This document shows, in pieces, positions 31,501 to 57,296 of a stretch of 64,000 nucleotides of DNA. How positions within the stretch are numbered: the first letter of the stretch is position 1; the number at the start of each line of letters is the position of its first letter. The position numbers were made by a program, and so were the translations under genes. The stretch is from Phoenix dactylifera (taxonomy: Eukaryota > Streptophyta > Magnoliopsida > Arecales > Arecaceae): the NCBI RefSeq assembly GCF_009389715.1, contig NC_052396.1:16894631-16958630 (forward strand), given 5' to 3'. Below the pieces are notes generated by a model. It was not told the origin of the DNA. It did not search any database and saw only the letters and a program-made list of their open reading frames with translations.

Positions 31501-34500
31501 GGGTGACAATAGATAAGAATATCAAACATCTTTGAAACGAAAATAAAGACTCAAGGTATTGAATCTATATTCAAAAATTAGAAGCAGTCCTCAGACCTAC
31601 TGACACAACTAACAACAGTTCGTCCAAGCAACTTCAAGGTGAACTAAAATAATCAAGTGAAATATAGATGGGGAAGCCTCATGGCTAGATTAGATTTGAA
31701 ATCTGGGTAGGTCATCCATAAATGGAATCCAATGTGGCATATATCTAGTTTGGGTTGGTGATTTCATCAAGCATGATCTAGTTCTAATGCTTTTGAAAGG
31801 TTTGACAACTCATGGTTTCATTTGAGGCCCCATCCTCAGTCATGTAATCATTTCCTGCATGCTAATGGCCATGGTATCCCTAAATAATGATCACTGGTAT
31901 GAAATAACAAATGAACTAAGTTATAGCATAAGCTTATGTACATGAACTCTTCCAGTAGGAGTCTAGTTATAAGATCACAGTAGGCAGTATCTTAAGCATC
32001 TTATTTGGTAGTCACTACAAGAGGAGACTTGAGTTGACTTAGGCTTTCCTATACCTCCCCTACTCATTATGGGAGTGCTCCAAGGATCTCCCCTCTATAC
32101 ACTTAAGACCCATTACCAAGTAATGTCTTATGCCTCAGGTTGACCAGCACTAACACAGAAATAAAGTGGACTTTACAAGTATGGAACAAAGACAAGTAGA
32201 GAAGCTAAGGGTTCGAGCAAAGAAACAGAAAGTTCGGCATTAACACATTCTCATTATTCAAGCTCAGAAGAGTCCTCTTAATCAAGTCAAGCTTCCAAAT
32301 CATGCTATGGGCGAGAAGAACTTGAAAATATGGTCACGTTAATCTCATATGATTGATGTTTCAGGTGCAGCTTCAGTCATATTCATTTTCAATTTCATTG
32401 CTCATCTAGATCTAGCGCATGTAGTATTCATATTGATATAGGATTCTTGCCCCAAACACAAATGCTTGGCAAATGATAATCCAAATATCGAACCCCCAAC
32501 AATTGGGACAAGGCTTGATGGTTATAATCATGGTATGCCACATCATACCGAATCGGGCGGTACGGAGCGTACTGAACTGGACGGTATTAAGCATACCATA
32601 CCGTACTGGTACGGAGGGTGTACTAGACACTCAGTATGCCAAACCAGCCCCTATGTCAAGCATTCCGACACGGTGACAAGGTGGCACCGGTACAAGGCCC
32701 GGTACCGAGATAGCATACTTTGGTTATAGTTATTCATACGTTGCATGAGAGCATATTGATTCAATATGATTACATGTAGATCACAATGTTCTCATATCTA
32801 CATGATGGATTTTCCCCAAAGACACTCATAGTTTAATCCCATTATGTAATATGTATCAAGCATACTATCTGGCTCTTAGGATCCAGCCGTTGTATATATT
32901 TATATTTTTCTAGTGGACCTATGCTTTGTGCAACATAAAGCAGATCAACCTTATGAGGCATCTTCAATGGAGTAATAATAAACAGAAAAAAAGTATCATA
33001 TTATTCATATAGGATAAAAGAGGGTCCATGTGATACTGAAGACATGTCACGGGAGCTATTTAGAATGTGATAGAAATATAATTTACTATCACTAAAAAAT
33101 ATTAAAATATTCAGACTTAGCTCTCTGGAAGAAAAAAAGATTGTAAAAACAAACCAACTTTAAATAAGCACCACAAAACACTGCAAAAATGACTTATGAT
33201 AATATATCACTACTTTCGGCATTCCTAAAACTGGTAAATTTTCATGATTCCTTGGTTTTATATCTGTACTCTATCACCAAGTTCAGCATTTGTAAAACAG
33301 GTAATTTTGCGTAAGTTCCTTCTTTTATGTCTGCGCATTCCCAGTGTTTCAATCAATTAAAGACTGCAGAAACTTACTTCCTGCTCCAGCTTAAACAAGT
33401 GGCGGTTAAAATGTTGTTGCAGCCTTTCATTGGCGTAATTAATACAAAACTGTTCAAAACTATTCTTCTGCAAAAACAAGAAATTTATCATGAGAGTATA
33501 TCCAATATAACCAACTGGGACAACTAATTGCAGAAGAGTTTTACATCAAAAGATTCAAAGCCATAAATATCAAGAATACTGATGGATCTGCCCGTGCGGC
33601 GCTTGCCTACAGCAAGTGAGTTGTTGATCTGTTCTACAAGCCACTCAAAAAGACTAGCATATAATGATTTGGCCAATGCATCTCTTGTATCGATTGCCTA
33701 GAGAAAAGGAATTTGAATGAAAATCTTCAGAAACCAGAGATTAAAATAAATCAGTAATTCTTCTAGTTAAGAATTCTAACAAACCTGTGAAAGAGTAAGT
33801 TTTTGGACAATATTATCATTGCCAACTTTCATTTTACGAGTTGACAGAGCTAACTTTAGATTACCAATACTGCATCCAATAAGTTTTGCAACAGTATGTG
33901 CCCCTGAAACAAAATGAAATATTATTAACTGAAAAACAACTAGAATATTGAAGTTCGCTATTTATATATTTCACAAAAGATGCAAGTAGAGAATTTTTAC
34001 TGACAATCTAGTTTTAAGGTTTGAAACAATTTTTGTACGAGAATTGATTTAATTTAATTTGGAAGTATAGACGACAATCAATGAATACCAAAAGTGATGG
34101 CAAAACAGACAAAAGAATGCTCAAGCGTCCGAATGGATAAACCATATCTGGCAACCCATACCTAAGCAAGAAGACACCATATAGATATCATAGATCTTTC
34201 CTATTTGATTTTCTATGCAGATATTTATTTTAAATACTGCAGTGAAAGTGTGTGCATACATGTGCGCAATTTGATATTCTATGTAGATATATTATTTTAA
34301 ATACTTTAGTGAATCAGGCATGCATACGTGCAAGCATGTGAACATTCAAAAACCTGATGAATTAGACTTTTTCGAAAACTCGACATCACAGTCCAAATGT
34401 AGGAGGTCAGTGCATCAAACAGGTCATTTAGACTGCCGCCACTTGTATTTTGGGCATGCTTGCACCTCACACAAACAAGATATCTTTTTAGCATTGCCTG

Positions 34501-37500
34501 CATAGCAGTTGCCACATCATGATCCAAACATGTATGAGATACTCGTAGATCTGACACATTCAGAATGATGGGCACAGAGCACCCAAGGCTTATTTGTCCC
34601 TTAAAATAATCCATTTTTCATCTCTCACGGGTTTTGGGCTATCAAAAGAATATAGGCACAAATTGAAAAACCTATCATGATGAAGCATCACAAACTAGAA
34701 ATGTTGTCATATGGCAATTTAACTAATTTGGATGACCATTAGTATACAGTATTAAACTCTTAATAATGCTGAACTTATTGTAAGCCCCAAGATCTTAAAA
34801 GGCAGCCACATCAAGGATCATAGCTAGAATGAGTCAGGACCATTTTTTCCAAGGATTTAAAAACTATCTAAATGGTACGGTAGGACCATCAATACCATAT
34901 GATTCCAGAAAGAAACCAGCAAAAGCACTGTGGTCAGAATGCCGAAACATGTTGGTGCTGGTGCATGTCCCATTGGTACCGATAGGTGCTGGCTGGTATG
35001 CACTAGTACCAGAAATGGTTCAGCTGGCACTAAGTCCATGCCAGGGAGCAGGATTTCACAAAAAATAAGTGAGAGATAACTAGCCAGCTAGGCTGCCTTT
35101 CACTTATCTATCACAAGGAGTTTTTTGGGATCCCATTTAGTGCCTTCTTGACTGAGAGAAAGAGGGAGAGATGGAGAAGAATAGAAAGAGAGAGAGAGAA
35201 GGGAGAGAAAATAAGGGAAGGAGGAGGGTGGGTGAGGTGTTTCCACCCTAAAATCCAGGTTCCTAGATGCCGAACACCCGCTGGATCCGGTGAGAACCCA
35301 ATCCCACACCCTTTTTTATTTTTTGCTCGTAAGTTGGCAATAAAAGGGAAAAATAGGGGAATTCATGCAAAATTTTTCCCTTTGGCATGAAATTTGGATA
35401 TGTTGTGGGGTGGGCATTATCCTATGCACACTAATTTCATTCTTTTGCACATATTTTATTTTATAAATAATTATTACTTTTGGATTAAATTAATTATTAA
35501 AAATAAAATTAGAAGAATTTCAGGGACAGAAAGAATATGTGCATCAATAGAGTAGAGTGCACATGCTACTAATTTATTGCTAGGTTTGGATGAATTGAGG
35601 GCACATTTGGGAGCAACTGAGCCTAAATTTGAAATTATGAGAAATTTAAAATTATCCTAGTAAATAAGCTTTTGTTCATCTAATGACGAATATAGGTAGT
35701 ACACCTACGGGCAAGATATGCGGTACCAATTGTAGCGACGTACCGGTGGGCATCGATACCGGTATGGTACTGAACCAAATCGAGCCGAACCGGTACTGTA
35801 CCGATGGGGCTAAAAGCCAAAAAAAATTTGGAGCCGGTACGGATGGTACCGGATCGGTACGGATCGGTACAGGTCGGTTCGGGCCAGTACCGGTTCGGTA
35901 CGGGATGGTACCAAATCGGTACGGGCCGGTACCGGATCGGTACGGGCCGGTACGCGCCGGTACGGGCCGGTACCCGTCGGTACGATTCGGTACCGAAATA
36001 TATAGTTGTACCGTACCAGTAGGGTCCGATACCGGTATGTACCACCGGCCGGTACCGACCCGTACCGACCGGTACGGCAGACCATGCCTACGAGTGCCTA
36101 TAAAAGCTCTCAAAATGATTAGTTTTTCAAATTTAATATAATTTGTATTTAATTTTCAATGAAAATTAATTAAAAATTATAGAGATTAGCCTAAATATTA
36201 GAAATAGGAATACAAGAAGCAAGATTTTCTATGCCTATCGGCTAACGACACGACTTGGTATGCCCTTGTGTCATTCCATGCCAAGTTCGTTTCGACACAG
36301 CAGAGAAGGAGGGGCAGAGAGAGAATAGGAGAGAGGAAAAAAAGAGGAGGAAGGGAAAGAGAGGGAGAGGGAAGAAGGGAGGGATAGACGATGAAAACCA
36401 ATGGAGGCCTGTGGAGCATGGCTCGATGTAGCAGAGAGGGTGGGGGAGAGGAAGAACATGAGAGAGGAAGAGAGCGAGATGGAGAGGAAGAGGGAGGACA
36501 AGAGAGATGGAGGCTGCCAGAAGGCCATTAGAGGTTGTTGGAGGCTGCCGAAGGCCTGCAGAGGGCTAGAGGTGGTGCAGAGGGGTGGAGTAGGGGCTTC
36601 TCCCTTCGGATCTCTGTTTCTTTCAAAATAGGGGTCCATCGGGACTCCTTTTTTCTCTCTGGGCCCCTCCAATGGCCTCCATCTCTCTCCCTCTCTCTTC
36701 CTCCCTCCCCCCCTCTCTCTCTCTCTTTTCCTCTCTTTCCTTCTTCCTTTTTTTCTCCTTCGCTAGTTTCTTATTTTAAATGCCGGAACCATCTCGGTCC
36801 GCCGTCGGCACAGCTCGGTATACCCAGAATCAAGTAGTTCGGGATGGTTTCTGCATTCCTTGATAAGAAGATAATCTATAGATATTTTTTAAGTAATTAT
36901 TATGCATTTTACTAATTTTTAAATTTTAAGAATTAAAATTATATTTTCAAGAAACTATTTAGAATTATATGAAATTTGATTAAATGTAAAAAAAAATAAG
37001 AAAATGTGTAGAGTTGAGATTTACTACTAGAAGAAAAGTGGTGGAGAATAATAAGAAGAGAGACATATTGGAAGGAAAGTGAGGATTAACAGGATGATCT
37101 TATTTTCTTTTCATTTATAATATTGTCCTTATAACATTTTTCCTTTTACAAGTCATTCCAAAAAGAGGCTATCACATAAGAAGGGAAATAACCCCTTTAG
37201 AAGTTATTAGTTGGCCATATCTTATTCCTTATTAAGCCCCAAAGTCTGCTAAACCGGTCGGAACCAACCGGTTCCGCCTGTACTGTACCGGTACCGGCCT
37301 CCACCAGTACGGTACAACCATAGAATTCGGTTTCGACCCTAAAGAGGTCGGAACCGAACGGTTTCTTGCCCGTACGAATGCGAACTGCACCGGTTCGCAC
37401 CGGTACCCACGAGGAAGAAGGGAGAAGAGGACCTCTCTTGTGCTACCAGGCCTCTTTTCTTCCTCCCGAGCGCCTCGTGGGGAAGAAGACCTTCTTTGCT

Positions 37501-40500
37501 CGCGGGAGAAGGGGGAAAGAGAGGAGAAGAGAAGGGAAGAAGAAAGGAGGAGCTCGGAAAGAAGAAGAGGAGAAGGGGAAAAAAAAAGAAAAGAAAAAAA
37601 AGAGAGAGAGAGATGCCGCGGGGAGCACGCTTGCATGCGGGGGCATGGGCGTGAGTGGAGAAACGCGCCCCGACTCGCGCCCGACTCGCTGCACACGCAC
37701 GGTTCCCCGCACGGGCTCGCTGCACAGGGCAGTGAGCCCCCGCGCTGCGCTGCGTGGGCTTTTAAATGCCACTCTGTAGCATAACGAGGATGCGCGCGTG
37801 TCCGCATGCGCGTCCGCACGGTTTGTTTCTTTTTTTTTGTCTGAACCGGTACCGAAACGGTACCGGCCTCCATTGGTACGTCGGTTCAGTCGGTTCTGCA
37901 TACCTTGTTAGGCCCCATACACATATAAAAAAATCATCCCTTACATATGGAAAGGATTCGCCCAATGAAGAAAATTATCCAATAATAGAGGGGAATCAAC
38001 TAATAAAGAAAATCATCCACCATGAAGATATTTTAGAAAATGTTATTAAGATAGCTATCATTCATTTTAGTAATTTCAGAATTTATATGATTTTCACTTG
38101 TTTCTCAAAAAATATTTAAAAAATCTAAAATTTTTATTAAAGGTAAAAGTATGGAACATGTGTAGATAATTTAGAAGTTGATTTTTAATAAAACAATCAT
38201 GAATTTTACTAATTATCCAAATTATTTATTTCAAATCACAATTAATTATTAATAATTGTTTAAAGGCAAAAAAAGTTAGGTTAAAGTTTAAGAAAATTAA
38301 CACAAAACACCACAATTTTTCAGACTATATTGGAAATTGTTTATCGAATGTATGGTAAGCATAGGTCTTTCGGTGGCCAAATAGAGTCTAGTAAGAAAAA
38401 ACAAAACAAACCCGATATCGGCTAGCTTCATGGAAAGATAGGCATGGAAAGACATATTGGATATGCAACTATTGTAGGATGACAAATAAAGGAGGTGGAG
38501 TCATCAATTGGCTACAAAGATGTCTAGAAGTGTACTAAGGTGTCCAGGGAGGTCTGAAAAGCAATGAGGAACCATTTGTTCAGTTTGAATGAAGCAAAGA
38601 AACTAGCTAGAGATCAAAGGGCTCACATAAACCGCAAGGTAGACGAGAGCCATTCTCACAAAGATAATGAGAAGGACAAGGACGAGCTGTCCGATCTGGA
38701 TGACATGGAGGCAGCTGAGACATGCATGGCTATACAAGAATCCAAGCAGGCGCAGTTGGCCCAATGCAAGAGAATACTTTATAGGCACAAATTGAAGCAA
38801 CTATCATGATGAAGCATAACAAACCTGAAATACTGTTATATGGTATTTTAGGTGATTTGGATGGTCATTAGTTCACAGTGTATTAATGATGTTAAAACTT
38901 ATGGTAAACCCCAAGATCATAAAAAGCAACCATGTCAAGGATCATAACTAGAATGAGTAAGGGCCACCTTTTGAAAATAGCATTTGGTAAGCACCTCTGC
39001 AACAACCTGGATTGTGGATGGGTCTTAGAACACCCATCAATCCTTGCCAAGATCAACATGAGTTTAAATATACAGGTATTAGACAGGTCATGACAAGGTT
39101 GCACATGTAGCCTTCTATTTTGTTTTATTTATGAGTTAAACCTAATTGTCTTAGATTACAAAATATCTGAGTAATTGTTTTTTTGATGAATGAGGGGCCC
39201 ATATCACAAATAATGTATAGCTTTTCAATTTTTCTTTTTAGTTTATGGAATTCTTTTCCATTAGAAAGGGACTGAAAAGGACTTGGCCAAGGTCCGTCGA
39301 ACTGGTACCAGGACCCGTACCAGTCGGCATCCGATACGGTTCGGTAGCAAACCAAATTGGTAGGGCAGTGGCAGGTGGTCCATACCCTACCCGGTTCGAA
39401 ACCAGGTTGACTCAGTGCGAACTAGCCAGTTCGCACTGAGTCGGCACCGAACCAGCTGGTTCCGGATGATAAAGGACCGGTTTCGGCCAGTCCAATATCG
39501 ATTCCGGCTGGTAGGAGCTAGAACCGAATCTGAATGACGAACCGACCTGGTTTTGCACTAGATCGGTTCAGTACTGCCTGAACCAGGCGGTTCGGCCCGA
39601 TTCAGTAGACCTTGGACTTGGCCAACCAAAAAGTTACTAAAGAATTCCCATTACTATAGCTTTTTAGTGGGAAAAACTAACTAAACTCGTTCCTATTTTC
39701 TGATCCCTTCTATATTCATCATGGTCATCTCCATGTTATCAAATTAAGTGTCCTGAATCTTGATGTTCATGTTTGAGATTTAATCATCAAAAGATTTTTT
39801 TCCCATCGAGTAATTATTTCACCTCCATCAGAAGAATAATAATGCAGCTTCAAAAAGATGAGAGAATGACATGCCATACTCAAAAGGCAAGGATCAAAAT
39901 TGTGAGGATGTACTTCTCAAAACAAAGTAAGAAGGCAGTTCTCAGATCAAGGACAAGGGATGCATTCAAGACCAAATATAGGCAGCAAAAATACCATAGG
40001 GGATAAAGGTGAGGGGTCATGGACAAGTTTTTGAATCAAGATTCTTGTGAAGAAAATCATTCTTCACAACCAGCAAGTTAAAGGGCCACAATGAACTGCA
40101 GCAATAGCAATCAATAACGCCACTATGATCAAGCTTGGTCACAAGAGAAATGTTCTCCCAAAAATCAACACATTGCTCCTAGAAAAGCACTCAGCCACTG
40201 AGCAATATTATTGCACAACTGAAGTATCAGCAATAGTTTTGATCTTGTAAACCTACTTGCATGAAATAAAATTATGTCAGCTGCATGAGGGATGTGATCC
40301 CATTCTTGAGGAGTCTTAATGAACATTTATCTTCTTAGCTATAGCATCCTTGCAATCTAGTGACAGGTTTTCCTAATGGAAATGGTTTGCATTTGTAAGA
40401 TATAACATGGCCAGGACTGAAAAAATAGAGGGAGGTGTTGGAAAATCAGGATTTGCTCCTTTTTAGTCTAATATCCATACTTGACAGATTTCTACAAAAG

Positions 40501-43500
40501 TTTGCAATGAACATGAGAAGATTTAGGTTTTATGGTCTTAGGGATTATGATAAGTGGAAGTTCATGAAATATTACATAAAAGGGAAAAATAAAGAACAAT
40601 ATTGCAAGAATTGTGCTACTATTAGATATTTATCAATTTCATAAAAATCCAATGATCTGATGGAGACAAAAGAAAGAACAGGAAATATGGAAGGAAGTAA
40701 AGTGGAAAGACTTCAATAGAGACGAGGAAATCAAGTATTATGAGCAAAGTAGATGAAGAATGAAAAGGAGAGAAACTAGAACCACATTTTCTTTTACAGC
40801 ATGAACAAAGAGACAGAAAAGGGGAAAAAAAGGGAAAAGAAAGAGAATTCAAAGTATAATCTTAGACATCAATCTTTTAAATGGGAAAACTCTTGAACAG
40901 CGAAACAACACCTAAATCTCTTAAATGGATCACAGTACACATGAAAGACTTTACCTTCATCTGCAACAACTTCAACATGGTTTTCATTATCTAGCACAGT
41001 AAAGGAGATGTTGCCCAACCACAAAACTGCTGCTAGCATTGCAAATACATTATCCTGATCCTCTTTGCTGATATGAACAATACTCATAGCTTCCTGGAAA
41101 CAGTTGAAGTTTTTGAGCATGATAATGATAATTATGAAGATTAGTGAGAAAGGATCGTTTATTAATAAAGATATTCATGAATTTGAAAGGCCATCAGATG
41201 TACCATCACAGTACGGAACCTTTCAGCATCATCAACCCCCACAATAGAATAGCAATTGCTCTGCTTCAGATATTTGTATTCATCTGCTTTTCTCAGATTC
41301 AGTTTCTCTGTTTTCAAAAAGAATTATAAAAAGAAAAACAGCAGGTTAACAGGTAGGAAGTGGAAAAAGGAATAAACAATAGAGCTCTGCATTATACACA
41401 TATCTATATGAATAAACACAAATAATTTACAAATCACAAAACCCATGAATAATGTATCATTATAATGAGAACATTACTCTTGGGAAGACAAAAGTGTCAA
41501 AAAGCTAATAAAACTTATAATTAGTAAACACAAAAAAATGACTAAATTTAGAGGCTTAACTCACCAATATGGACATAAAGGACTAAAGGAGAATTAAAGA
41601 AATCATGACTGGATACCTCTAACTTTGGAAAAGGAAGCATGCAGTGTTGTATTGATTAAAGGAGCAATAATAGTGATATTCAATTTACTCTCACTAGTTC
41701 AGTAATGATGTCAACACAAACAAACATTGCACGCCATTCGCTGGCGTTTCCCCAGGATTAATTATCTCATAGATCAGGTAAGTATCAAAAGTTTGGAGGG
41801 TTAGATGTATGTTCACCATCTTTGAATCATTGAATAACTGAGAATATATTGTATAAGCTTAACATATTATCTGAGAAGACTTTTTTAATAAAGGTTAGGT
41901 TTGTAGCTGTTCAACTAATAAACAAGTAGATGTGGTGATTTATCTCGATACATGACATAAATGCAGGCAGGAAGCTGCCAATTTATCATTGTCAATAAGT
42001 GAAAAAGATAAGCCAGGGATAGTCTATTACATTTGCCGAACAAATAAAGCATATCTACTGCCTGCATACATAACACCCTAATGAAAGCTGTCCCACGAAA
42101 GAATGAATTGTGGCTGACATCAAGTAGGTTGTCAGTCATACAACATAGTTCAAAACATAGTCTGCTGAACCGGCCCGTACTGTCCGGTTCAGCATGTACT
42201 GTACCAGTATCGGTGCCAACCGATACGGTTCAGCCGTGGAAAATGGTTCCGGCCCCTATGCGGCTGGAACCGACCAGTTTTCATTGCATACGGGTGCGAA
42301 CCGGACCGGTTTGTGCCGGCCCGCGCGTGGGAAAGAGCGTGCACTTAGCTCTATCAGTACTAGTTCATACCGGTCCGAACTGGAACCGTACTGGTCCGGT
42401 AGGTGACCGGTATGCCTACCAATACCGGTGTACCTTGGTTCAAATTATGAAACAGTCAATTGAATATGGATCAAATTTCAAACAAAGATGATGTTATGAT
42501 CATCTTCAGAGAAGGAGGAATGGATTGATCTTCTAGGATTCCCACAAATTCTTTGATTTCTTCCAAAAGCTGATGATTACTTGTCTTCTTCTAATGTTCT
42601 GTGAATAGCTGGTATATTGAGGAAGATCCAAAAAGGCATTTCAGAAATATAAAAGTAAAATGGGTTGGCTTTTGCTCATGTTATGGTAACCCCTCAAGTG
42701 AGATGATGTAATGAAACCCAAATGTAGTATGAAGAAAGCAAGGGCGCAAACAATAAATAGAAAGAGGGAAAGTTGATGCTAGAAGGAGAACGAATTAAAG
42801 GAGAGACATATCAAAAGAACTTTTCAAACATATTTAAGCATAACAGATATCTAACATAAAGTAACCAGCAAAACGAGTAAACTCGATGAGTACTCTGTAG
42901 AAAGAGACCCAAAATCCCCATAAACCCTACTAAAGGGAAACAATGAAGTCGGGTAGAGGAACATCAAAGGGAGCTTGCCTAGGTTGATGGATTAAAGGTG
43001 GTTTTAACCAAAAATTGAATCAGGTTAAATCAAATTGTTTTCTGGAATCTCCCCCAACCACCACCAAACTGAAGTTCGAATTCAAATGGCTTGGAAATGG
43101 TCGGTAGAGGTTACAAGGCCCTTCCACTACCAATCTCAATACATGATAACTAGATGGGATTGAATAATAAAAATTAGAAGATCACCTCTAGTCTCTAATT
43201 CTCAATTCATCAATGGCTTACAGCATGCTTCAGATTCACTTTTTCAGCAATGAACATGAGTAGACTTAAAACAACTTCGACTAGACTGTTTAAGCCTCAC
43301 AGATTGATCAAATTCAAAAAATCATTCTTGTGGTACACCAACAAGCAAGTCAAATGATTAAGATTCATGTTATACTAAAATTAGCAACATCAGCACTGTA
43401 GCATTAGTCACAGTGAGAAGATCCCATCCACTAGTTAAATAAACAGCTGATAGCTCCAAGGATTGCCGAACCGATACTGGGTGTCGTATTGGTCGGGCCC

Positions 43501-46500: not shown

Positions 46501-49500
46501 CATGTAACATAACATGATCCATAAAAGATTAGGGCAAGTTACTTACAGTAGTTCGTTATCCGAATTTCTCAAATCCAAATGATAGATCTTTAATCCCTAA
46601 AACCACATCATAAGAATCACATTATTCTCTATTTATTTATTATAGAATTTAGTTCATCTTACTATGGACTTGCTTGGATCCCATCCAAGGATCTTAGCCC
46701 AATTCAATTTACCCAATTTGAAGCCTTTGAGATTCAATTAAAGCCAATTTGGGTCCACATGGGTTAATTGGGCTTTTAATAAAATGGTTGGGCCTGATTT
46801 ATAATTAAGTCTAGCCTTTTCTAGCCAATTTGGCCTTCTGTCAATTTAATTGGACTTGAACTGGGTCTAATTTACAATTAATTGGGCCTGCTGAGATTAA
46901 CATAACATGAATGGGGTTCGGACCCAGCCCAATTGGGCTTAATTAGGTTCGGATTTAACCTAATTTGCTTAATTGGGTTCATCCAGGCTCATTTAGGTTC
47001 AGACCCGACGCTATTTGGGCTTGAATTTAACCTATTTTATTCAATTGGGTTCGGTTCAATTTTTATTGGGTTTACCAAACCCATTTTCTTAATTTGGGCC
47101 TAACGAGTTTCGGACCCGAATTCGGATCCGACCCGTTAGGCAGACCTATTTTAGGGTCTTTCTCGGTTCTTCCTGAGGCTTCGCCTCTTCGTCTCCCGCT
47201 CCCCTCTCTCTCTTCCAGTCTCTTCCTCTCTCTCTCTCTCCGGAACCCTAGCCGCTCTGGCCAAAACCCCTGGCCTCTTCCTCTTCCCTCGCAGCCCTCC
47301 GGCTCCTCTCCTTCCTCTCGCTGGCAACCGGGGGAGGGGTGAGACTCCCTTGATCCACTGGCCGAGGCGGTGCTTCCATCTTGGAGCAGCAGCGGACGGG
47401 AGGCCGGCCCTTCCTCTTCTCCGAAGTGATGCCGGAGAAGAGAAGAAGGGCTGGAAGGTGGGGCCGAGGCCCGATCTCCTCCGGAAGGTCCTCACCTGCT
47501 CCGACCACGGCGAGGTAAAGCCGCCGTCCGAGGATGAAGCCTCAAGGGTTCAGTAAGCCCTTCTTTTTTTTTTTATTTACCTTCTTCTGCTTCTGTTTCC
47601 CCTCTTCTCTTTTCTTTTTTATAACGATGCACCACCTCAAAGAGGTGGGGGCTCGACTGGGGCTAGCGGCCCTGTGGCCGCATCTGTTGCCGGCTCGGCC
47701 AGACCCGGCGGCCTATGGCAGCCTCTGTGCCCTGTTCACCTGCAGGGCCGAGTCCAGTAGGGCTCGGCTCGGATGAACATCGGGCCTGGGCCTGGGCCGT
47801 TCTCAGGCCGGCCCGTGGCCTGTAAGTCTGACCCGTAGTGAAGTCCAGTGGCCCTTCTCCCGTCTCCTCCATGCCAGTCTTCTCCCCTCTGTTTCACTGT
47901 TGAAACAGAGAAGAGAACAGAGGAGAACACTCCACAGAGTAGTTTTCCACCCCTTTTTACTTAGTTTAAACCCTATTTACTTAAGTACAGTAGCTCTTAC
48001 CTTGCTTTGGCCGGTTGTAGCCGAGCAATACCACCTCCACAAAATCCCTCCTTCCTCTCCTAGGGCTGTAGAGCTCCTTTAGCCTCCAGCTCCAAAGGTC
48101 CGGCTTCTCTGGTGCAGTATTCTGGAGAGCTAGAGGTCAAGAGGGTATAGTAAACCGTGGGTTAGCAAGCTAAGGGTTTATATAGTGTAGCTTAAGATTT
48201 GACCCCTTGGAGAGGTGGCATCCTCTCCTTCCCCCTTGCTCCGGGAGCCACCAGCTGCCCCCCTTCCTCAGGCCAGCTAAGTCCTCCATTAACCGAGGCT
48301 GAGAGGTGGCGGGCTCCTAATTTGCATGGTTAAGGGCCAACAGCTGGCCTTCTCTCTACTAGCCAGCTGGGGCCCTGTCATATCTACCCTCAGGCGTGAG
48401 GTGGCAGCCCTCCATGGGCTGCCATCCATGGGTCCAATACAACCCACAATACCTGGCCCAAATACCCTCAAACTAGGCCTCAAAAGTATTGGGCCTAGTT
48501 AGTATTGGGCCCGGACATTACAGATTCAGACCGTACCGGACCGGTACCGACAGGCACCGGTCCGATACAACCTTTGAAATTGGTTCCAACCCTATCTGAG
48601 TCCGAACCGATCGGTTCCGACTCCGTACCGATGCGAACCGGTCCCTCTACAGCGATATTATCAACAACATGACACCTCTTAGAGCTAGAGCTTCGGCGAG
48701 AGATCTGAGAGTTCTTATGACCCGATGCGCATTCCTCAGGGATTGAGTATACAAGACTACAATGCTGCTTGATTAGAGGGATGGATTGATCTGCCTCCTT
48801 ATTATGCTGATGATCAGGATATCGACGAGAAGCATCGCCACTCGATATGATTTTAGATATTCGAGAGTTTTAAATATATATAATTGATTGTATCTTAATT
48901 TGAAAATATTTTATTTTCATCTCATGATTTGAATCATTTGGAAGTAATAAGATGCATCATCTAGTTTAAACCTTAAAGCTAAACATAGAAACATCAAAAA
49001 AAGGTCCAAAAGAGAGAACTCTCCAAAAAAAAATGACGCCGAGGCCGAAACCCGATCGAACCAGCCGTACCGGTACGGTACCGGTTCGGTTCGGTACGTA
49101 CCGATACGGTACCGATGCCCACTGGTACATCGGTACGGCGGACCTTAATAGAATCCATATACAAATACATGTATATGCTCGTACATTGGAAAAAAAAAAC
49201 ACTTCATCTACCACAAACCTTGAGAACAACAAGGTGGTCTCGAGCTTCCATAACTCATAATGTATTTGATAGACAAGCATAGTCAATTTTTGAGGACTCC
49301 TAAACAAGGGAAGTCCATGCCCTATATCTGCAACATTCCAATATAGCCAGTTTCATAATCAGTGTCCTGGCTCTTTTTCTTTCATTAAATTTATGAGAAT
49401 GCAAATAAAATCTTAAGGATGAGTCTCTCTTCTAGATGCCTAGCAATAGCTCCTAAAAAAAGACAAAGTAAAAATACTGCAGGGAAGCCACCTCTAGATC

Positions 49501-52500
49501 CTAAAGAAAGAAAGAGAAACTGTTTTACATTTTCACCAACTTTAAGTTTTATAGATAAAAATATAATAGCAGAAGGTTCTCTTAATACGACTAACCATAA
49601 GAATGACCGAAAGAAGTTATAAGACCGAGGTTTTCACTTCTCCACCATTAGTAGTAACATAATAAAAGTGTCGAAGCTTTCTATGCAATAGCAAGTCACA
49701 TTATTGTCCTTGTCGATGGGGAGTTACCAGGCAAAGTACTGCGATTGTGAATGACTCTATACCTAATTTACTAATGTGTTAACTAAATACCAATGCAAAT
49801 ATACGATTTTAAGAACTACATAACAAGTGTGCAGGAAAATATGATAGATCATGTGCATGTTACAAAATGCAAAGCCCACAAAATTAAGAGTTATACAGCT
49901 CACCAATGACTAAAATGCCTCAAAGATATGATCACATGCATCTAACAGAGGCAGGGGCAGATATGTTGGACAATTAATGCACAGTGTTGCATATTTATAT
50001 ATTACTAGCAAAAGACTCTCTCCTTAGTTATATATTTATTTACATATTACCAAGCCAAAAACTTCCTCCTTTTCCTTTCATGAAGAAGAAAAATGGAGAA
50101 AAATTTCATACATTATGATCCAAGAGATCTTAATTCTCCATAGCACTTTCTAGGTTAGCCTGAGACAGTACTTTCAGATTCAGTGTTTAAAATTTTGTTT
50201 GCTCCTGCATTTGCTATACCTGTCTGATCTCATCTTGAAATCTCTCTCCTACCCTCCCCACCCACTCCACCCCCCAACCCCCTCTCTCACTCACATTGCT
50301 TAACTGCTGATAGCGAGGTTTTAAATACAATGTACCTCTTTTTAGTCTTCCACATGTAGATGGAGGGATTCTGGGTACAACAAGATTACCCATGTGCTAT
50401 CTCTTTCCAATTTGATAATTGCATGTGATCCCATGCATTATTACAGAGGTCTTGTAATACTAACTAAGCAGGAGACACATGGGGGTCATCATCATCACTA
50501 TCCATGCCCTTCATGATGATTGTATGCAAGCAAAAGTCAAGAAAAGGCTATGCTGCATATGTAAATCAAGGTCATCTTACTAAGTATACCGAGCTTAACC
50601 ACATTTGCGGTAGGGTCATTATAAAAGATAACTTTTCCCATTAAAAGATATTTAATCACATTTTAGTGATATTCCACATTCTTTATGGGTGAAAATTTTC
50701 AAGTGTCATGACTATAAAATTCCAACTCGAAATAGCCAGCAACAACTATAGAGACAGAGTCCAATGGAAGTCAAGAAAACTAGCCCAAGACATAGATATG
50801 AAGGGAAAAAAAAAAGAACGGAGATAACATACCTCTAAGAGATAATGAAGCACCAGCACAGAGTTGATAAAAGATATGATACGACCGTTCACCAATGGCA
50901 CATTGAACTACTCTTGACTGCATATAGCATATAAAAATTAAAATACATCATGGGACAGAAAGCACAAAACTAGTAAGAATCATCTCACCAGACAGATAAA
51001 AGTACCTTCTCAAGTAAAACTGTCCACACATAGAAGTTGAGCAGGCAGAAACAATAGAAGGGTAAAGCAATCAATGTCGGATTGGAAAAAATGGAAGAAA
51101 ATATATTCTGCAAGGAAAACAAAGTGATTCAAAGTACATTCCTCTTACATGTTTGAATCTTGGCACCAGAAATTTTCCCAGTCATGCTGAAATGAATTTC
51201 AATCAGCTTGCCCTGAAGTCAGACACCAGGATTTAATGAAAAAATATAAAATGGTTTCAAATTTTAACATGAATGTTCTGCACACAGAAACTAATTACTT
51301 CACAAGTCTATGAAGTGGCAGATTTCAAAAGCCATCTACCTTATTCAACATTTCAACTCCCAATATTTAAGAGAAATTGAAGGCTTGGAATAGACTGTTA
51401 CAAGTATACGGTGACTAACAAGAGTAAAAATCATTGAAGCTAAATAACTCACAAAGCGACTGGAATTGTCATTTCTTGATGTTTTCGCATTGCCAAATGC
51501 TTCTAGTATAGGATTTGTCTGCAAGATTTCATATTCTATGCCACTACCCCCTCCGAGAGCAGCCAAATATTGCATTGCGATTTTTGCTGTTTCAGTTTTT
51601 CCTGCTCCACTCTCACCACTAGAAAGAAGACCACAGTTAGTGATTTAAGAGTACAAGAATTTGCTTCATTAAATTCACTTCTGAACTTGAAACATTAAAC
51701 AAATACCAGACAAAGAACAGAAAGAAGATAACAGATTCTCAGAATATAATATAAATTTTTTTAGTCAGAATAAATCAATCATGGTAATACTTTTAACCAG
51801 TATGCTTGTTCTTTCATATATTTTTCTTCCCTACTTTAGAAACTAGAAAGAAGTCCTTACAGTAAAAGAAGAAAAAAAAGATCTTTGATAACCTTTTATA
51901 AATTTTATTCAACTCCAAAAGCAATTTTGATTCCACAAGGATCTCATGGCTCGATTACTGCTCAATCTCAAAGAGTGAAAAATAAAGTAACCAGGAGGTC
52001 CATTAAGTCATGATGCTGACTTTCTAGTTGTAATATTAAGCAAGCATATTTATGACGCAGGCATTACATGTGTAACATCTGCAAGTCACCTATATATTTT
52101 GAGCAACTTATATAATCACAAAATATCTAATATTTTCATCTAGGATGCATCGCACTACAATCAGTGATAGGCCATAATCTCCTCCTAGAGATGTAAGACA
52201 GAAACTGATACAGAATCTGAAATAAGGTTTAAGTTGTTATTATTTCAAGAATTGAACGAGAAATACAAATTCTGAAATGACAAATGAATCAGATGTATAA
52301 ACCACCACTAAATAAATGGCTGACAGAAAAATGACAAGGACGTGATTTATAATTTGTATTAGCCTGCTGATTTTTGATCAAAGATGCTGCAGTCATGCAA
52401 TATTTATCATTTTATTTGTATATTATCCAACTCTATAACCTATGTATGAAAAAAAAGTGTTGGGAAAGAACAACCATAAGGCACATAAACAAGGAAAAGA

Positions 52501-55500
52501 TAAGATTTCAATTACAGAAAACACAACTAAGAACATCATAGAAAGAACGTCTGCTTTCTGTGTGCCCTTTTAGTTTCATATAATGAGCTATTTAATTTTC
52601 TTTCTTAGTCAGCCCACTCTTCTAGTGATATGAAAAGAATGATTTTGTTATTCTTTTTGATATATTGCTCAGTTCAATATCATGCATACAGAGGAAGAAG
52701 TTCCACCTTTCACTTGAAACAAACATCATCTTATATATGATGTAATAGCATCTATTCCAACAAAAAGCAACAGAAAAAAGTGAAAGGAGAAAAGTGCAAC
52801 ATTTATCTAAAGAATACTGAAAAAGTAACACCATGACCATGATCTGCAATTATCAAAGAACTGGATGAAGAACTACTGACCTTATAATAATTGATTGATT
52901 AACTTCATCTGCAATTAGGGGGGAAAAAGGAAAATCAAAGTCAAAGTTCAAGGTGGCTAAATATAATAGTAAGTTACATGTTGTAATTATGATGCAAATT
53001 GCTTACTTGAGATAAATTACCTCTTATCATTTCGCGAATGGCAGTATCTGCTATTGCATAAACATGTGGACTGTCAATAGCTTTTCGCCTATATGCTTCA
53101 ATGAGATCTTTTCCATAAAGATTTACTTTTTTAAATGGGTTGATAGCAACCAAAACTGGTCCTGCTTTAGTCTAAGTTGCAAGATGAAAAGATTTTTATG
53201 TGTTAAGAAAATTTATAATGAAGCTCTCAAATCTAGAGAGAAGATGAATTAATGAAAGTACTCAGATTTCAAATCTACAGGGAGCATGACTTAGTGAAAG
53301 TACTCACGTATATCATGTCTTGGGAATATCTATATTGCAGATTGTATAATACTGATGGTTCATTTAAATAACTGAGTTGCATAAGATCATCCACACCATC
53401 AAGAATTTCAGGGTTTGCAGGTAACAGACTCTCAGTGTTCAGCCTCAAAACCTTCAAACACAAATTTAGATGACAAGCTAGAATATTGTAAAAGAGAAAA
53501 CAAAGGTTCCTTAATATTTGGACTAGAATAGCTTACTTCACCCTCAGGAAGAGATATAACAGATACTGCCCCAGAAGTTGACAGAATGTTCCCCAATGCC
53601 CAATCACCATTTGCAAGTTTGCACCAGGCTTGAACCTTCTGAAACAATAAACTTTAACATGTAGGTCTTACAATCAATAGACAGTATGTGGATCATATCA
53701 TACCAACTGCAGCAGTTAATTTTTTTTTAAAAAAAAATGTACTCAATATTGGTAGGAATCTAAATTAAAATATTATACAAGAAAGCAACATAAGCAACCA
53801 TAACTTCCAGAAGCCATTTGCTTATCAGAAGAGTCACAAGATTATATGTAGCAGTTGACAATACAATGTTTCTTTATTCAAATATGCTGGGACAAATTTG
53901 CCCATTAAGATACGCTAAAGCAAGGTTCGTCGTCTCGGTATCGGATTCCGTACCAGTACCACACCAGCACAGTGTCGGTTGGTACGGTACGGATTTTTTT
54001 TAGCATACCGCATGTCGGTACGCTATCCGTACCGGATACCGATACCAAACCGATACAGTATGGTATGCCTTGTACCGCCCGGTTCGGGCTGGTACGGCAT
54101 ACCATGCGCTGAAGCAATAAGTGTAAAATTAAAGTACGAGGAGAAGCCTTATTTGTAACAACTCTAAGTAGTTATTCATATGACATGGGAGAAATAATAT
54201 TTTTTCTAAGATAGAGACCAATCATGCAAGAGATTATGCAGAATAAAACCTGACAACTCTAATTTTAATGAAAGAGAATCATTGTCGAGCTTATGAAAAG
54301 TACAAGGAAAATTGGACTATCAAATAATCAAATGTGACCCTTAAATCCTTATTCAGTTGAAGATTACAAAAAAGGTCCCCACAAACATATGCAGGAAACT
54401 GATGCATAAAAATGATGGGACTACAAATGGAATAGCATGGCAAAATTGATGCATAGAACAACTAAAAGGCTTTTGAATATAGAAGGCCTTAAGGACAAAT
54501 GCTTATCACTTTTGTCAGGATGCACTAATGTATGATTCCCCAGATCAGCCAAAGGACATATGAATCCGGTTGTAAAGAAGTGTATTTTACATGTATTATC
54601 CTATTATCAAGACATTGCAGCTCTATCTATATTCCATGACTTGCCTCAGAGGAAAACTTCTTGGAAAATTTGGATTTACGCAAAAGTGGTACAACCTGAC
54701 CAAAATATGATACCTAAATTATGGATCATGGTAGATATTAAACAAACTTTCTCAAGTAGTTCATACATGAAGTTCTAGACTTAATACCTGATGGGAGTGG
54801 GTAGGACCTTAATCCAACTCCTAAAAGAAGTTCTGGCCTCAAAATATATTAAAGAACCACTAGGCAACTGGTCCCGAGGGATTTGAATAAAGAGTAAGAA
54901 ACAAAAAGAAATATGAAAAATTTGATATAAGGATTACTCTCAAAAAGTGGGTGCACTCATTGCTAAAGCTCAGAACAGCATCTTAAGGAGAAATGCTGTT
55001 TTCTTATTTTTAAAAAGGGACTTTGACATGTTTATCCTCTTTTTCCGAACCCAAAACATTCCTCTTTTCTCCTAAAAAGAGATGGACAACTGAAAGTGAC
55101 AGGCAATGCAAGAGATTAATCCAGCACACAACCTGACAATTTTAAGAAACATGACCATCACCTTGAACTTACAAAAGTTTGGATTATGAAGTTATCAAGT
55201 TCAACGTTTCACAGTCATATTAAGCTGTCAATTACAAAAACATGTTCCCGATTTAACTTTTGCAGGAAACCAATGTATAAATGTGATGAGACTATAAATG
55301 ACATATCATGAGAATGCAACATTCTTGCAATTAAGAGGCTTCTGAATATGGAAAGTCTCAAGGAGAAATACTTATAACTTCTGGCAAGATGCTCTAAGTG
55401 ATGCCCAAGCTAGGATTAAGGCCACACACATCCGATGGTAAAAGAAATGTATTATTACATGCTCTATCCTACTGTCAGAAAAACTTCAGGACTATCTATA

Positions 55501-57296
55501 ACTTGCTTCCAAGAACATGAGTTGGAAAATTTAGCTCATGCACAACTTGAACAACCTGACCAATATGATTCTCAAAGCATGGATTGCAGTGGATTCTGAA
55601 CAAACTGAATGGTTCTCAGGTTACTGATAAATAAATTTCCAGCCTTAAGATAATATGTAATCCAATGGGGAGGGTAAGACCTTAAACGAACTCCTAAGAG
55701 ACCAAGAAGTTCTAACCTCAGAAACATATGAAAACACCACTCAGCAGCTCGTCCCATGGGATGTTAGATAAAGAGTACCAAAGCACAAAGAAATCCGAAG
55801 CATCTATTATGAGGATTTCTCTCAAAGAGTGGGTATGGTCATTGGTAGAGTTAATAAACATTATCTTAAGGAGACGTGCTGTTTTCTTATTGTTAGCAAG
55901 AAGTAGGTATGTAGAAAAACTAATCCCAGTATAATTCTCTACAGTGTCGCTTTTTTGAAAAAATGGGAAGTTTAACTGATACTTGACTAGCGGAGGCTAA
56001 CAGTTACAAGAAGACAGAAAAATTCTACATGCTAGAACCCAAAATAATAAGCCTATAACACAATGCAGAAGATCACTGACGGACCACTGCGCATGGCTCA
56101 CAAGGTAGAAGAGTACTAATATCCCTTTAGAGTGAAGTTAGATTAAGATTCACCGTTTCGGTACTAGATCTCGTACCTATGCCACACTACGACCATATCA
56201 GTATAGTACGGTCCGAGATTTTTTTCAGCGTACTAAGTGTCGGTACACCTTCCATACCAAATACAGATACCAAACCGGTACAGACCGATATGGTGAACCA
56301 TAAATTAGATGGATGGGCGCAGTTCACAGCATAATGTGCTGTAGCTAAAAATGTGAATCCCGCAAAAAGAAAGTAGAGAAGATCAAACACGAATCAAGTC
56401 AATGGCCTGAGGAAATTTACAAATAAACTTCAACATTAAGGAAGCAGATACAGCTGAATAGGGAACAGAGCCAATGCGCATCAATAAGCTAGCAACAACG
56501 GCGACCAAGAGTGAGATACCTGATGATCTATAATTCCCCTCAACTCTGCCTAATTAAACAAAAATAAATTTCCCAATCACAAGTACAATGTAAGTACATA
56601 CATAATATAAATAAGAAAAATCGTTACTGAAAATCCATGAAAATCACACATTTAACCATTTCCGAGGCAACATATAAATACCCCTGCATTTTCTGTTTGT
56701 TCTCGATAACTAAAACGTATGCTCCGAGCCCAATTTTAAGGTTGCGAGAATATATGCAGAAAAATGTAGCAATGGTGTAGATTTAATTCTTTTAAGAAAA
56801 AATAACAAAACCATCCCTGCACCTAAATCCGGTCTCGCCCTCATGAAGGAGTGATCTCTAACCAAAAGAAGAACAAAAGACTTACCTTCTTCGGGCCATA
56901 AGAGGTGGTATCGCTCCATCTGGAGTCAATCCGCAACGGAGCGACGACAGGCAACCTCGAAGTCACATCCTCGGATGCATCATCTCCCTCTCCTTCCGGA
57001 GATCTCTTCTCCCGGGAAGTCGTCCTCGAACTGTACGGCGACTCATCATTCCCCTGGAAACTCCCCATGTCCTCTTCATCCAAAGAAGGAAGATCCGTCT
57101 TCGATTCCTTCAGTTCCTTCCTGTCGCCGGCTTCCTCCAAGGAGGAAGGCATGGAGCCGCTGGTGAAACTAAAATCTTGGGGCATCGATTTCGTGGACTG
57201 GAGCCGGGGTGGCGCCCGCGGTTTCACCCTGGACCTCTCCGGCTTGGTCTTCTTCGAGCTCGGCGCCCTCCGTGACCTCATTTCAACGGACGCCAT
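18831..57296 (-). CDS. VIII-1: Class VIII unconventional myosin heavy chain, 1,193 aa, 23 coding exons
   Basis: Exons in transcript order: 56886-57296, 53537-53638, 53308-53451, 53021-53171, 52881-52908, 51453-51618, 51149-51212, 51006-51019, 50833-50917, 41204-41307, 40955-41093, 33785-33903, 33545-33697, 33378-33467, 31004-31081, 25407-25565, 25116-25319, 23132-23337, 22917-23052, 22433-22562, 22136-22282, 21961-22040, 18831-19502. They join in frame with GT-AG borders (3,582 nt). Order of domains: disordered basic N-terminus; SH3-like segment (about 130-175); motor (about 185-855) with P-loop GESGAGKT (280-287), switch I NDNSSRFGK (328-336) and switch II DIYGFE (552-557); four IQ motifs (about 867-950); a short coiled coil and a class VIII tail ending [10 protein letters not shown]. 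Arabidopsis VIII-1/ATM1 is about 1,166 aa. Class VIII myosins work at plasmodesmata, endosomes and the cell plate. The ATG at 57294-57296 is used because the frame above it starts with TTG. No inactivating lesion was found. Confidence 0.96.
19503..21960 (-). other. Myosin intron 22 (2,458 bp)
   Basis: AT-rich. Apart from T-rich tracts near 20700-20900 and 21305-21325, I see no repeat or gene in it. Confidence 0.6.
21961..22562 (-). CDS. VIII-1: Myosin exons 20-22: IQ-motif neck
   Basis: Exons 22433-22562, 22136-22282 and 21961-22040 encode four consecutive IQ-like motifs: [46 protein letters not shown] and [15 protein letters not shown]. These bind calmodulin or calmodulin-like light chains and form the lever arm. 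Exon 20 ends at a weak donor (TCAT followed by GTATTT) that splits a Phe codon. Confidence 0.92.
23338..25115 (-). other. Myosin intron 17 (1,778 bp)
   Basis: Plain AT-rich intron. The stretch around 23930-24330 (CAGCATAGTGAAATG, TTTGGTTGCCTTCGAATAAAATTAGC, GGGCGTATTTGGCCAC) reads like a fragment of an old DNA transposon, but no paired ends were found. Confidence 0.4.
25975..26655. repeat. Tandem duplication of a ~341-bp unit in myosin intron 15
   Basis: CAATATCTCCAC at about 25981 returns at about 26322, and the sequence that follows (GTGATTCATGTCCTTA, TTCCATTCATT, GAATGGGAATGA, TTAGGCTTGTTTT, GGGGAATGAA) recurs in the same order. The two copies are visibly similar with scattered substitutions. 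Confidence 0.85.
26656..28424. other. Middle of myosin intron 15
   Basis: AT-rich with no clear gene. A moderately GC-rich patch near 26930-27400 and a run of A near 27390-27410 could be repeat debris. Confidence 0.3.
28425..30855. repeat. Diverged direct repeats bracketing 1.35 kb in myosin intron 15
   Basis: Segment 28425-28978 is matched in the same orientation by about 30320-30855. Shared landmarks, in order, are TCATCTTCAACT, AATGGTTTC/AGTGGTTTC, TCATTGACA/CCATTGACAATT, ACCATGGCAGA.ATATGAGT, CAATTTTCAA, CACTTGGTCATTCTAC, ATGTTCAATATG and CTACTTCC. The layout resembles a non-autonomous LTR element of about 2.5 kb, but I found no convincing primer-binding site or target duplication, so that reading is tentative. 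Confidence 0.55.
32529..32722. mobile_element. hAT-like MITE, GGTACC family, copy 1 (194 bp)
   Basis: Left end CATGGTATGCCACATCATAC; right end (reverse complement) CAAAGTATGCTATCTCGG. The flanking 8-bp duplication is GTTATAAT (32521-32528) and GTTATAGT (32723-32730), 7 of 8. It lies in myosin intron 14. Confidence 0.75.
33378..33697 (-). CDS. VIII-1: Myosin exons 13-14: switch II and relay region
   Basis: Exon 13 (33545-33697) encodes [20 protein letters not shown], then the class VIII linker [21 protein letters not shown], with switch II DIYGFE at 552-557. Exon 14 (33378-33467) encodes [20 protein letters not shown], the relay helix. Exon 12 (33785-33903) precedes them. By the usual count of 16 residues before DALAK, an Asp (about 499) occupies the TEDS site. 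Confidence 0.93.
34651..34845. repeat. Dispersed repeat, copy A
   Basis: This stretch begins TATAGGCACAAATTGAA and ends near CAGGACCATTTT. It has a same-orientation partner at 38780-38970, with landmarks ATCATGATGAAGCAT, CATATGGCAATTT/TATATGGTATTTT, GATTTGGATG-type, CCCCAAGATC and TCAAGGATCATA. Both copies are in myosin intron 11. Confidence 0.8.
34850..35320. mobile_element. Possible further GGTACC-family element (unresolved ends)
   Basis: It starts like the family (CAAGGATTT at 34850) and contains GGTACC and TAGTACC motifs plus a purine-rich core (35145-35230) like the cores of the copies at 36220 and 37240. I could not find a matching right end or an 8-bp duplication. Confidence 0.35.
35712..36086. 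mobile_element. hAT-like MITE, GGTACC family, copy 2 (375 bp)
   Basis: Left end CAAGATATGCGGTACC; right end (reverse complement) CATGGTCTGCCGTACCGG. The flanking duplication is CCTACGGG (35704-35711) and CCTACGAG (36087-36094), 7 of 8. The interior is dominated by degenerate CGGTACGG/CCGGTACC words. Several overlapping open frames (GTGRY-type) are translation artefacts. Confidence 0.85.
36220..36862. mobile_element. hAT-like MITE, GGTACC family, copy 3 (643 bp)
   Basis: Left end CAAGATTTTCTATGCC; right end (reverse complement) CAAGGAATGCAGAAACC. The flanking duplication is ACAAGAAG (36212-36219) and ATAAGAAG (36863-36870), 7 of 8. The core has a GA-rich tract (36296-36510) and a CT-rich tract (36676-36755) facing one another. 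Confidence 0.8.
37240..37907. mobile_element. hAT-like MITE, GGTACC family, copy 4 (668 bp)
   Basis: Left end CAAAGTCTGCTAAACCGG; right end (reverse complement) CAAGGTATGCAGAACCG. The flanking duplication is TTAAGCCC (37232-37239) and TTAGGCCC (37908-37915), 7 of 8. GGTACC-rich arms (37250-37405, 37840-37900) surround a purine-rich then GC-rich core. Confidence 0.85.
38780..38970. repeat. Dispersed repeat, copy B
   Basis: Partner of 34651-34845. The flanking open frame at 38564-38809 (81 codons, Asp/Lys-rich) is unrecognised and runs into this copy, so it may be part of the same unknown element. Confidence 0.8.
39288..39614. mobile_element. hAT-like MITE, GGTACC family, copy 5 (327 bp)
   Basis: Left end CAAGGTCCGTCGAACTGG; right end (reverse complement) CAAGGTCTACTGAATCGG. 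The flanking duplication GACTTGGC is perfect (39280-39287 and 39615-39622). Interior repeats are of the GAACCGG/GGTACC kind. Confidence 0.9.
42156..42437. mobile_element. hAT-like MITE, GGTACC family, copy 6 (282 bp)
   Basis: Left end CATAGTCTGCTGAACCGG; right end (reverse complement) CAAGGTACACCGGTATTGG. The flanking duplication is GTTCAAAA (42148-42155) and GTTCAAAT (42438-42445), 7 of 8. It lies in myosin intron 9. Confidence 0.85.
43457..44790 (-). mobile_element. Larger hAT-like element with decayed coding remnant
   Basis: One end is CAAGGATTGCCGAACCG (43457), the family terminus, followed by GGTACC-type words. Reading away on the minus strand there is a decayed frame across about 43785-44420, with pieces such as [30 protein letters not shown], a Tyr/Pro-rich stretch and [20 protein letters not shown]. 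The last 400 bp toward 43457 match the 48680-49080 copy in opposite orientation. The other end (near 44690-44790) has family words but no clear terminus or target duplication. I infer a C-terminal transposase-like remnant; the family identity of this protein is not proven. Confidence 0.55.
45023..45440. mobile_element. hAT-like MITE, GGTACC family, copy 7 (418 bp), hairpin-rich
   Basis: Left end CATGGAATGCCGTACCGG; right end (reverse complement) CAAGGTCCGCCGTACCGG: 15 of 18 identical. The flanking duplication CCGCCCAC is perfect (45015-45022 and 45441-45448). It inserted into the nested element, making a third level. It includes two long perfect hairpins: a 13-bp stem at 45122-45134/45142-45154 and an 11-bp stem at 45291-45301/45305-45315. 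Confidence 0.92.
45921..46264. repeat. Two-unit GC-rich tandem repeat (172 bp each)
   Basis: GGATGCT begins units at 45921 and 46093. Each unit contains three shorter copies of a CGGCCACTGGCGGGGC.GGCTCAGT motif of about 33 bp, followed by AGCATC.AAGAGCCC. Confidence 0.85.
51006..51019 (-). CDS. VIII-1: Myosin exon 8: 14-nt microexon
   Basis: The 14 bases TTTTACTTGAGAAG complete the conserved motor sequence T-FLLEK-SRVVQ between exon 7 (ends ...AKIQT plus one base) and exon 9 (starts SRVVQ). It is flanked by AG and GTAC on the minus strand, and the frame only closes if it is included. Confidence 0.9.
51453..51618 (-). CDS. VIII-1: Myosin exon 6: P-loop and switch I
   Basis: This exon encodes the nucleotide-binding core: GESGAGKT (residues 280-287), the [19 protein letters not shown] helix region, LEAFGNAKT and NDNSSRF of switch I (the GK follows in exon 7). 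All key ATP-binding residues are present, so the motor should be catalytically competent. Confidence 0.95.
53921..54106. mobile_element. hAT-like MITE, GGTACC family, copy 8 (186 bp)
   Basis: Left end CAAGGTTCGTCGTCTCGG; right end (reverse complement) CATGGTATGCCGTACCAG. The flanking duplication is CGCTAAAG (53913-53920) and CGCTGAAG (54107-54114), 7 of 8. It is in myosin intron 1 and is the close relative of the copy at 56144. Confidence 0.85.
54224..55900. repeat. Tandem duplication of a ~883-bp unit in myosin intron 1
   Basis: ATGCAAGAGATTA near 54225 returns near 55108, ACCTGACAA at 54248 returns at 55131, and TGCTGTTTTCTTATT at 54994 returns at 55877. All three are offset by 883 bases. 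Many scattered differences show the duplication is old. Confidence 0.85.
56144..56302. mobile_element. hAT-like MITE, GGTACC family, copy 9 (159 bp)
   Basis: Left end TAAGATTCACCGTTTCGG; right end (reverse complement) TATGGTTCACCATATCGG. The flanking duplication is AGTTAGAT (56136-56143) and AATTAGAT (56303-56310), 7 of 8. The interior shares ACACTACGACC, CGAGATTTTTTTCAGC and ATACCAAACCGGTACAG-type words with the copy at 53921, in the same orientation. Confidence 0.8.
56886..57296 (-). CDS. VIII-1: Myosin exon 1: variable N-terminal extension
   Basis: It encodes residues 1-137: [10 protein letters not shown], a Lys/Arg/Pro-rich start, an acidic Ser/Asp/Glu-rich middle, and the conserved [12 protein letters not shown] end that leads into the SH3-like segment. 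The exon is GC-rich compared with all later exons. Arabidopsis VIII-1 has the same RWSDTSAY.RKK join, which supports the subgroup assignment. Confidence 0.9.

Follow-up and report, generated by a model that had tools for sequence, protein, structure and literature searches.

The GGTACC-rich elements of a date palm (Phoenix dactylifera) window, the whole 64,000-nucleotide stretch analysed here, are almost certainly non-autonomous DNA transposons of the hAT superfamily, made up of MITEs and internal-deletion derivatives. This assignment, which a first-pass annotation of the same DNA had already proposed, is based on the 8-bp duplications that flank the elements, on their YARNG-like termini and, above all, on a full-length relative on contig C10, which carries a DUF659 domain and a hAT dimerisation domain. 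The elements have common ends, as the same annotation held in describing one MITE family, but the family consists of several subfamilies, along with long copies that have lost internal sequence, and is not one homogeneous MITE. It is dispersed over many contigs and is not special to the myosin gene found in the window, though it is dense there.

Window elements and their host gene

Inverted ends close to CA(A/T)GGTNTGCCGNACCG characterise eight elements in the window, each of which has a flanking 8-bp duplication (TSD) that agrees at no fewer than seven of its eight positions and is located exactly at these ends. The TSD is perfect in two MITEs, 39288..39614 (R39 subfamily, 327 bp, GACTTGGC) and 45023..45440 (R45 subfamily, 418 bp, CCGCCCAC), the latter of which resides inside an LTR-like insert. 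In the other six, the two copies of the TSD agree at 7/8. Three of these are S-type MITEs: 32529..32722 (194 bp, GTTATAAT/GTTATAGT), 53921..54106 (186 bp, CGCTAAAG/CGCTGAAG) and 56144..56302 (159 bp, AGTTAGAT/AATTAGAT). Two are R-type MITEs, the word-rich 35712..36086 (375 bp, CCTACGGG/CCTACGAG) and 42156..42437 (282 bp, GTTCAAAA/GTTCAAAT). The last is the R-type element 37240..37907 (668 bp, TTAAGCCC/TTAGGCCC), the left arm of which shares 71% identity with the 42156 element and 72% with the 44930 element described below. No strand is assigned to any of the eight. The first-pass annotation had counted nine elements, two with perfect duplications and seven with 7/8; the two perfect ones stand, but only six are at 7/8, and the ninth (44930..49147) agrees at 6/8.

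A scan of the window for end pairs, which used the terminus of that annotation as its sole input and scored both ends out of 15 at a spacing of 80–1000 bp, returned 519 pairs with a score of at least 9/15 on both sides. Nine of them reach ≥7/8 in their duplication at the true offset, compared to a total of 30 pairs over 80 other offsets. Lowering the threshold to at least 8 gives 23 pairs at the true offset and 687 summed over the 80 others, and raising it to at least 10 and at least 11 gives 6 versus 5 and 5 versus 1, respectively. One of the nine pairs, 36220-36862, is not word-rich, and we count it as a chance pairing.

TSD positions 1–8 agree in six to eight of the eight elements and the next six positions in only one to five, so the duplication is 8 bp long, the length that generally defines hAT elements and that is found both in the window and in the genome copies. 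The short TIR of hAT elements has a consensus of the YARNG type. Among 19 tabulated termini, which were picked by their similarity to the motif of the first-pass annotation, position 1 is C in 16 and T in three, position 2 is A in all 19, position 3 is A in 12 and T in seven, and position 5 is G in 17. These termini fit the YARNG type except for the seven with T at position 3, which depart from R. In some copies the terminal arms are long and the interiors vary, as might be expected if the elements were Mutator-like (MULE) or other TIR MITEs instead of hAT. Mutator MITEs have a TSD of 9 bp (9 to 11), but the ninth base agrees in only 3/8 window elements and, on the two sides of 45023-type copies, in 6/20 and 4/20. 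The full-length C10 relative carries hAT domains, and we consider a MULE or other TIR origin very improbable.

The host is a Myosin-1-like gene (18834..57296, minus strand), which we take to encode a class VIII myosin. Its 18 exon blocks were delineated by tblastn, which is not splice-aware, and some of the blocks bridge short introns. The best protein by summed bits, among 120 listed of 2800 matching proteins, is from oil palm (P0085). Ten members of the family are located in four of the 17 gaps between the exon blocks (2.3, 7.0, 9.5 and 3.2 kb long), and no block is touched. A profile search finds 11 members in the 64-kb window versus three in a genome sample of 226 kb, which comprised 20 stretches spaced 2 Mb apart along contig C1, two close to the beginning of C1 and one from the beginning of C2. 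The profiles include the window copies and the window was picked because it is striking, so these numbers describe a dense local patch and are not evidence of targeting. We infer that the density in the myosin introns reflects the tolerance of long introns. Repeated colonisation of the introns of one gene, as first annotated, describes the ten members in the inter-block gaps but not the family, which is dispersed over the genome. The region to the left of the gene, in which the same annotation saw no member, contains an S-type relic outside the myosin gene (14311..14442, no strand assigned) with one good terminus and a perfect 8-bp match between its flanks (CTAAATAT/CTAAATAT).

Several other features of the window are of note. 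Both copies of a 100-bp direct repeat (34651-34750 and 38780-38879, 82% identity) lie in one 7-kb intron of the myosin gene, outside the elements described here, and perhaps belong to another repeat family. To the left of the gene are a fragment of bacterial-type LSU rRNA (Rfam, 12173-12261, minus strand), perhaps an insertion of organelle DNA, a tRNA-Lys (CTT) at 13435-13509 (minus strand), and a 379-bp tandem repeat (944-2167, 3.3 copies, 97% matches) near GA/TC-rich tracts.

Nested insertions and empty sites

The ninth window copy is interrupted. Its left piece (44930..44964) is preceded by the TSD copy ACATAATC and its right piece (48527..49147) is followed by ATAGAATC, the two agreeing at 6/8; neither piece is assigned a strand. 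Across 357 bp, the right piece shares 80% identity with C10 element positions 147-498. Positions 44930 and 49147 most plausibly mark the two ends of a single element. The DNA that splits it is an LTR-like insert (44965..48521, plus strand, TATCACG..GGACATTACA), which carries the 45023-45440 MITE. The insert begins with TATCACGTCCCGGACCC, and related sequences at the start of contig C2 (locus L003) begin with TGTCACG and have the same boundaries. It looks like a solo LTR, though its flanking 5-mers, AGTTC and GATTC, agree at only 3/5. Minus the nested MITE, the insert is about 3.1 kb long; it contains an internal 172-bp tandem pair (45916-46248), and several related pieces are present in L003.

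The site occupied by 45023-45440 in the window is empty in two L003 copies of the LTR, where the flanks continue through a single 8-mer (CTGCCCAC and TCGCCCAC, each one base off CCGCCCAC of the window). The nesting, the LTR boundaries and the empty sites together give the order of events: the 44930 element came first, then the LTR-like insert, and then 45023-45440. The empty sites and the dispersed copies with duplications of their own establish that the family has been mobile, as the first-pass annotation maintained in spite of the satellite-like interiors.

To the left of the split element lies a tenth, longer and internally deleted copy (43457..44790, minus strand, right end approximate). 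It is inverted relative to the 44930 element, to which it is about 75% identical over 372 bp and beyond. We also considered 43457..49147 as one 5.7-kb element with long inverted arms and rejected it; its flanks agree at 2/8. From the boundaries of the LTR and from the C10 element it follows that this region holds two copies in opposite orientations, one of which is split. The 43457 copy has no recognisable TSD at its ends, of which the right one is approximate. Its matches to the C10 element cover positions 1-1078 (in pieces, 76–81%) and about 4104-4236. The middle of the C10 element, both transposase domains included, is absent from it, and the stretch downstream of the dimerisation domain is retained. 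A Pfam search with six frames of 43458-49147, which holds 45023-45440, yields nothing at E 0.1. None of the 313 candidates from a protein search with one frame of the 43457-copy stretch reaches E ≤ 1, and none of the 1041 candidates obtained with the translated 45023 element reaches E ≤ 0.01.

Copies across the genome and long relatives

The 773,078,369-bp date palm assembly that contains the window (on contig C5, 16894631-16958630) was searched with window copies. The 45023-45440 query has 40 scored matches out of 1843 first-look candidates (own copy included) with identities of 87–97%, which span query positions from 1-418 down to 67-418. The TSD was evaluated for 28 of the 32 copies listed as full length, the window copy included. 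It is perfect in 24/28 and agrees at ≥7/8 in 26/28, compared to 3/1008 in a control in which the right flank was slid by 9 to 44 bases; the other two copies have no duplication of at least 7/8 at their computed ends. The 28 copies are 384–430 bp long and their mean pairwise ungapped identity is 0.979 (range 0.952–0.995). The 45023 type is therefore a MITE: it is short, has a TIR and many copies of like length, and no transposase is found in the Pfam scan of 43458-49147.

The 26 duplications have T at position 2 in 17 cases (p 6.3e-4, uncorrected) and A at position 7 in 14 (p 0.017, uncorrected). The target preference of hAT elements is nTnnnnAn (PMC10368747, available part). The agreement with it is only partial since T at position 3 (15 cases), A at position 6 (16) and C at position 8 (11) are equally marked, deviating at least as much as position 7.

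The 39288-39614 query has 40 scored matches of 231 genome candidates (own copy included), with the others being 67–81% identical to it. All 13 near-full-length copies of this subfamily were evaluated: the TSD is perfect in 3/13 and agrees at ≥7/8 in 9/13. Four have no duplication of at least 7/8 at their computed ends, and one of these four (L068) shows 8/8 once both ends are shifted by one base. The check that the first-pass annotation proposed, for fixed ends and 8-bp duplications in other genomic copies, was thus applied to part of the copies in the assembly, and the family passes it. An automatic end-pair scan of a 230-kb genome sample gave no excess, with one pair at the true offset and zero to two at each of 16 other offsets. 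The single true-offset pair is L012:7596-7782, which has a perfect duplication and to which the 53921..54106 S-type MITE is 75% identical over 171 bp.

These data bear on whether the elements could be a GGTACC satellite or simple repeat that expands in place, with the flank matches arising by chance. The interiors are indeed word-rich, and TRF reports tandem repeats at 49067-49114 and in parts of the elements at 35712 and 45023. Against this stand the fixed termini with 8-bp duplications far in excess of the control, the empty sites in the two L003 LTR copies and the near-constant length (384–430 bp) of the 28 copies, and we give the satellite explanation practically no credence.

The 43457 copy, used as a query, has 40 scored matches of 1490 genome candidates (own copy included). 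Three long relatives were examined, on contigs C4 (L052), C1 (L053 and L056) and C9 (L054 and L055). The C1 copy carries PF05699 in L053 (25.8 bits, cut-off 21.4) and PF04937 (DUF659) in L056 (96.9 bits, cut-off 34.7), with no zf-BED upstream of DUF659 in L056. In the C4 copy, PF05699 scores 18.6 bits, which is under the cut-off of 21.4. No hAT domain is found in the two C9 stretches, the DNA of which matches the C1 copy at 77% over 1.6 kb.

A search with the DUF659 stretch (40 scored of 635 genome candidates, own copy included) led to the full-length relative on C10 (L070:210-4503, 4,294 bp). Its termini, CAAGGATTGCCAAACGG and CAAGGATTGCCGAACCG, score 12 and 14 of 15, its flanks (GTCTAGAC/GTTTAGAC) form a 7/8 duplication, and it has GGTACC- and GAACCGG-type words at either end. 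It carries PF04937 (145 bits, E 1.9e-42, cut-off 34.7) and PF05699, the hAT dimerisation domain (29.6 bits, E 6.2e-7, cut-off 21.4). The two domains are in different frames, so introns or frameshifts must lie between them. A zf-BED match (13.8 bits, E 0.061) is under the cut-off of 20.6.

Because they match a C10-type element with its middle absent, the 43457 and 44930 copies are best read as internal-deletion derivatives of a C10-like element. For the shorter copies the likeness is more restricted. A 39288-type copy (L067) matches the last 115 positions of the C10 element at 73%, the first 41 bases of the 45023 type match its last 40, and the R-type copies of the window match it over about 20–55 bp only; the R-type MITEs are probably internal-deletion derivatives, too. 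None of the S-type copies (32529, 53921, 56144 and L012) matches the C10 element at E 0.01. When the sequences were reversed as a control, no query matched it.

The S-type (about 190 bp) and the R-type might then have been moved by different, related hAT elements, which would make at least two families. The C10 element is matched by the long copies and not by the S-type interiors, and the S-type and R-type were found with separate profiles; conversely, these two types have a common terminal consensus and like words. We regard the chances of such a division as even.

Interiors, probable mechanism and relation to known systems

The interiors of the elements are filled with short words. The 28 copies of the 45023 type contain a mean of 43 ACCGG/CCGGT words per copy versus 11 such words in 22,400 flank bases (8 loci). 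In nine elements (eight from the window plus L012), the CpG observed/expected ratio is 0.95–1.54, compared to 0.30 in window positions 22000-32500. The same nine, folded as RNA, are more stable than their dinucleotide shuffles (z -2.4 to -18.4; 40 shuffles each and 15 for the longest element). A tandem-repeat finder calls parts of such transposons simple repeats, and GGTACC-rich elements are easily mistaken for them.

The enzyme that moved the elements was most likely a DUF659-type hAT transposase encoded by longer relatives with like ends. It would bind the TIRs and, presumably, the CGGTACCGG-like words with which the elements are filled, and would excise the elements and reinsert them via an 8-bp staggered cut. 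The short MITEs would thus have been moved by a C10-type transposase, with the S-type sharing only the termini and the R-type only short stretches with the C10 element. Elements of the hAT superfamily require subterminal repeats (excerpts of PMC10368747), and a preference for CGG words that are also present in the subterminal regions of the respective elements is described for several hAT-derived DNA-binding domains (excerpts of PMC8097297). By analogy, the word arrays probably serve as subterminal repeats to which the transposase binds. A more speculative scenario, which we consider rather doubtful, is that the CGGTACCGG arrays are binding sites for the family's own transposase, amplified until they filled the MITE, so that short copies outcompete long ones for the enzyme. 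If the arrays are amplified binding sites, these CpG-rich, strongly self-pairing inserts could alter how the long myosin introns that hold them are methylated and spliced. The idea that satellite-like GGTACC DNA may consist of transposase-binding arrays is testable.

Elements and MITEs of the hAT superfamily have already been annotated in bulk in date palm, as described in the available parts of the DPTEdb (PMC4865326) and Deglet Nour (PMC12295771) papers. The latter reports hAT as the commonest TIR superfamily of this cultivar, with 2001 elements, so the kind of element is not new. No paper on a palm hAT MITE family with GGTACC words was found among the top-ranked literature matches, which is weak evidence of absence given incomplete coverage, and a study of 207 plant genomes (PMC12550479) names no palm in its main text. 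What a tree crop gains here is a hAT and MITE family whose limits are well defined, together with a full-length relative, empty sites and a chronology of nested insertions.

The family is of a known kind, that of plant hAT MITEs, and its interior is unusual. The hAT MITE families of Brassica nigra, as far as the available part of PMC7385995 describes them, are likewise short, non-coding and of high copy number and have TIRs; the date palm elements differ from them in interiors that consist largely of CGGTACCGG-like words and in the high CpG ratio given above. In its PF04937 and PF05699 domains, the C10 element is like the DUF659-type plant hAT transposases, DUF659 being a domain that includes hAT transposases (PMC3985635, in part). 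The hAT-derived CGG-binding proteins (PMC8097297, same excerpts, which name no palm protein) often prefer CGG words, a preference that may extend to the date palm CGGTACCGG. Hermes and other hAT elements (PMC10368747, same excerpts) are alike in the 8-bp TSD, in a TIR with short repeated motifs inside the ends and in the tendency to T at position 2. Unlike in Hermes, the motif fills most of the date palm element, and the preference for A at position 7 is no more than weak.
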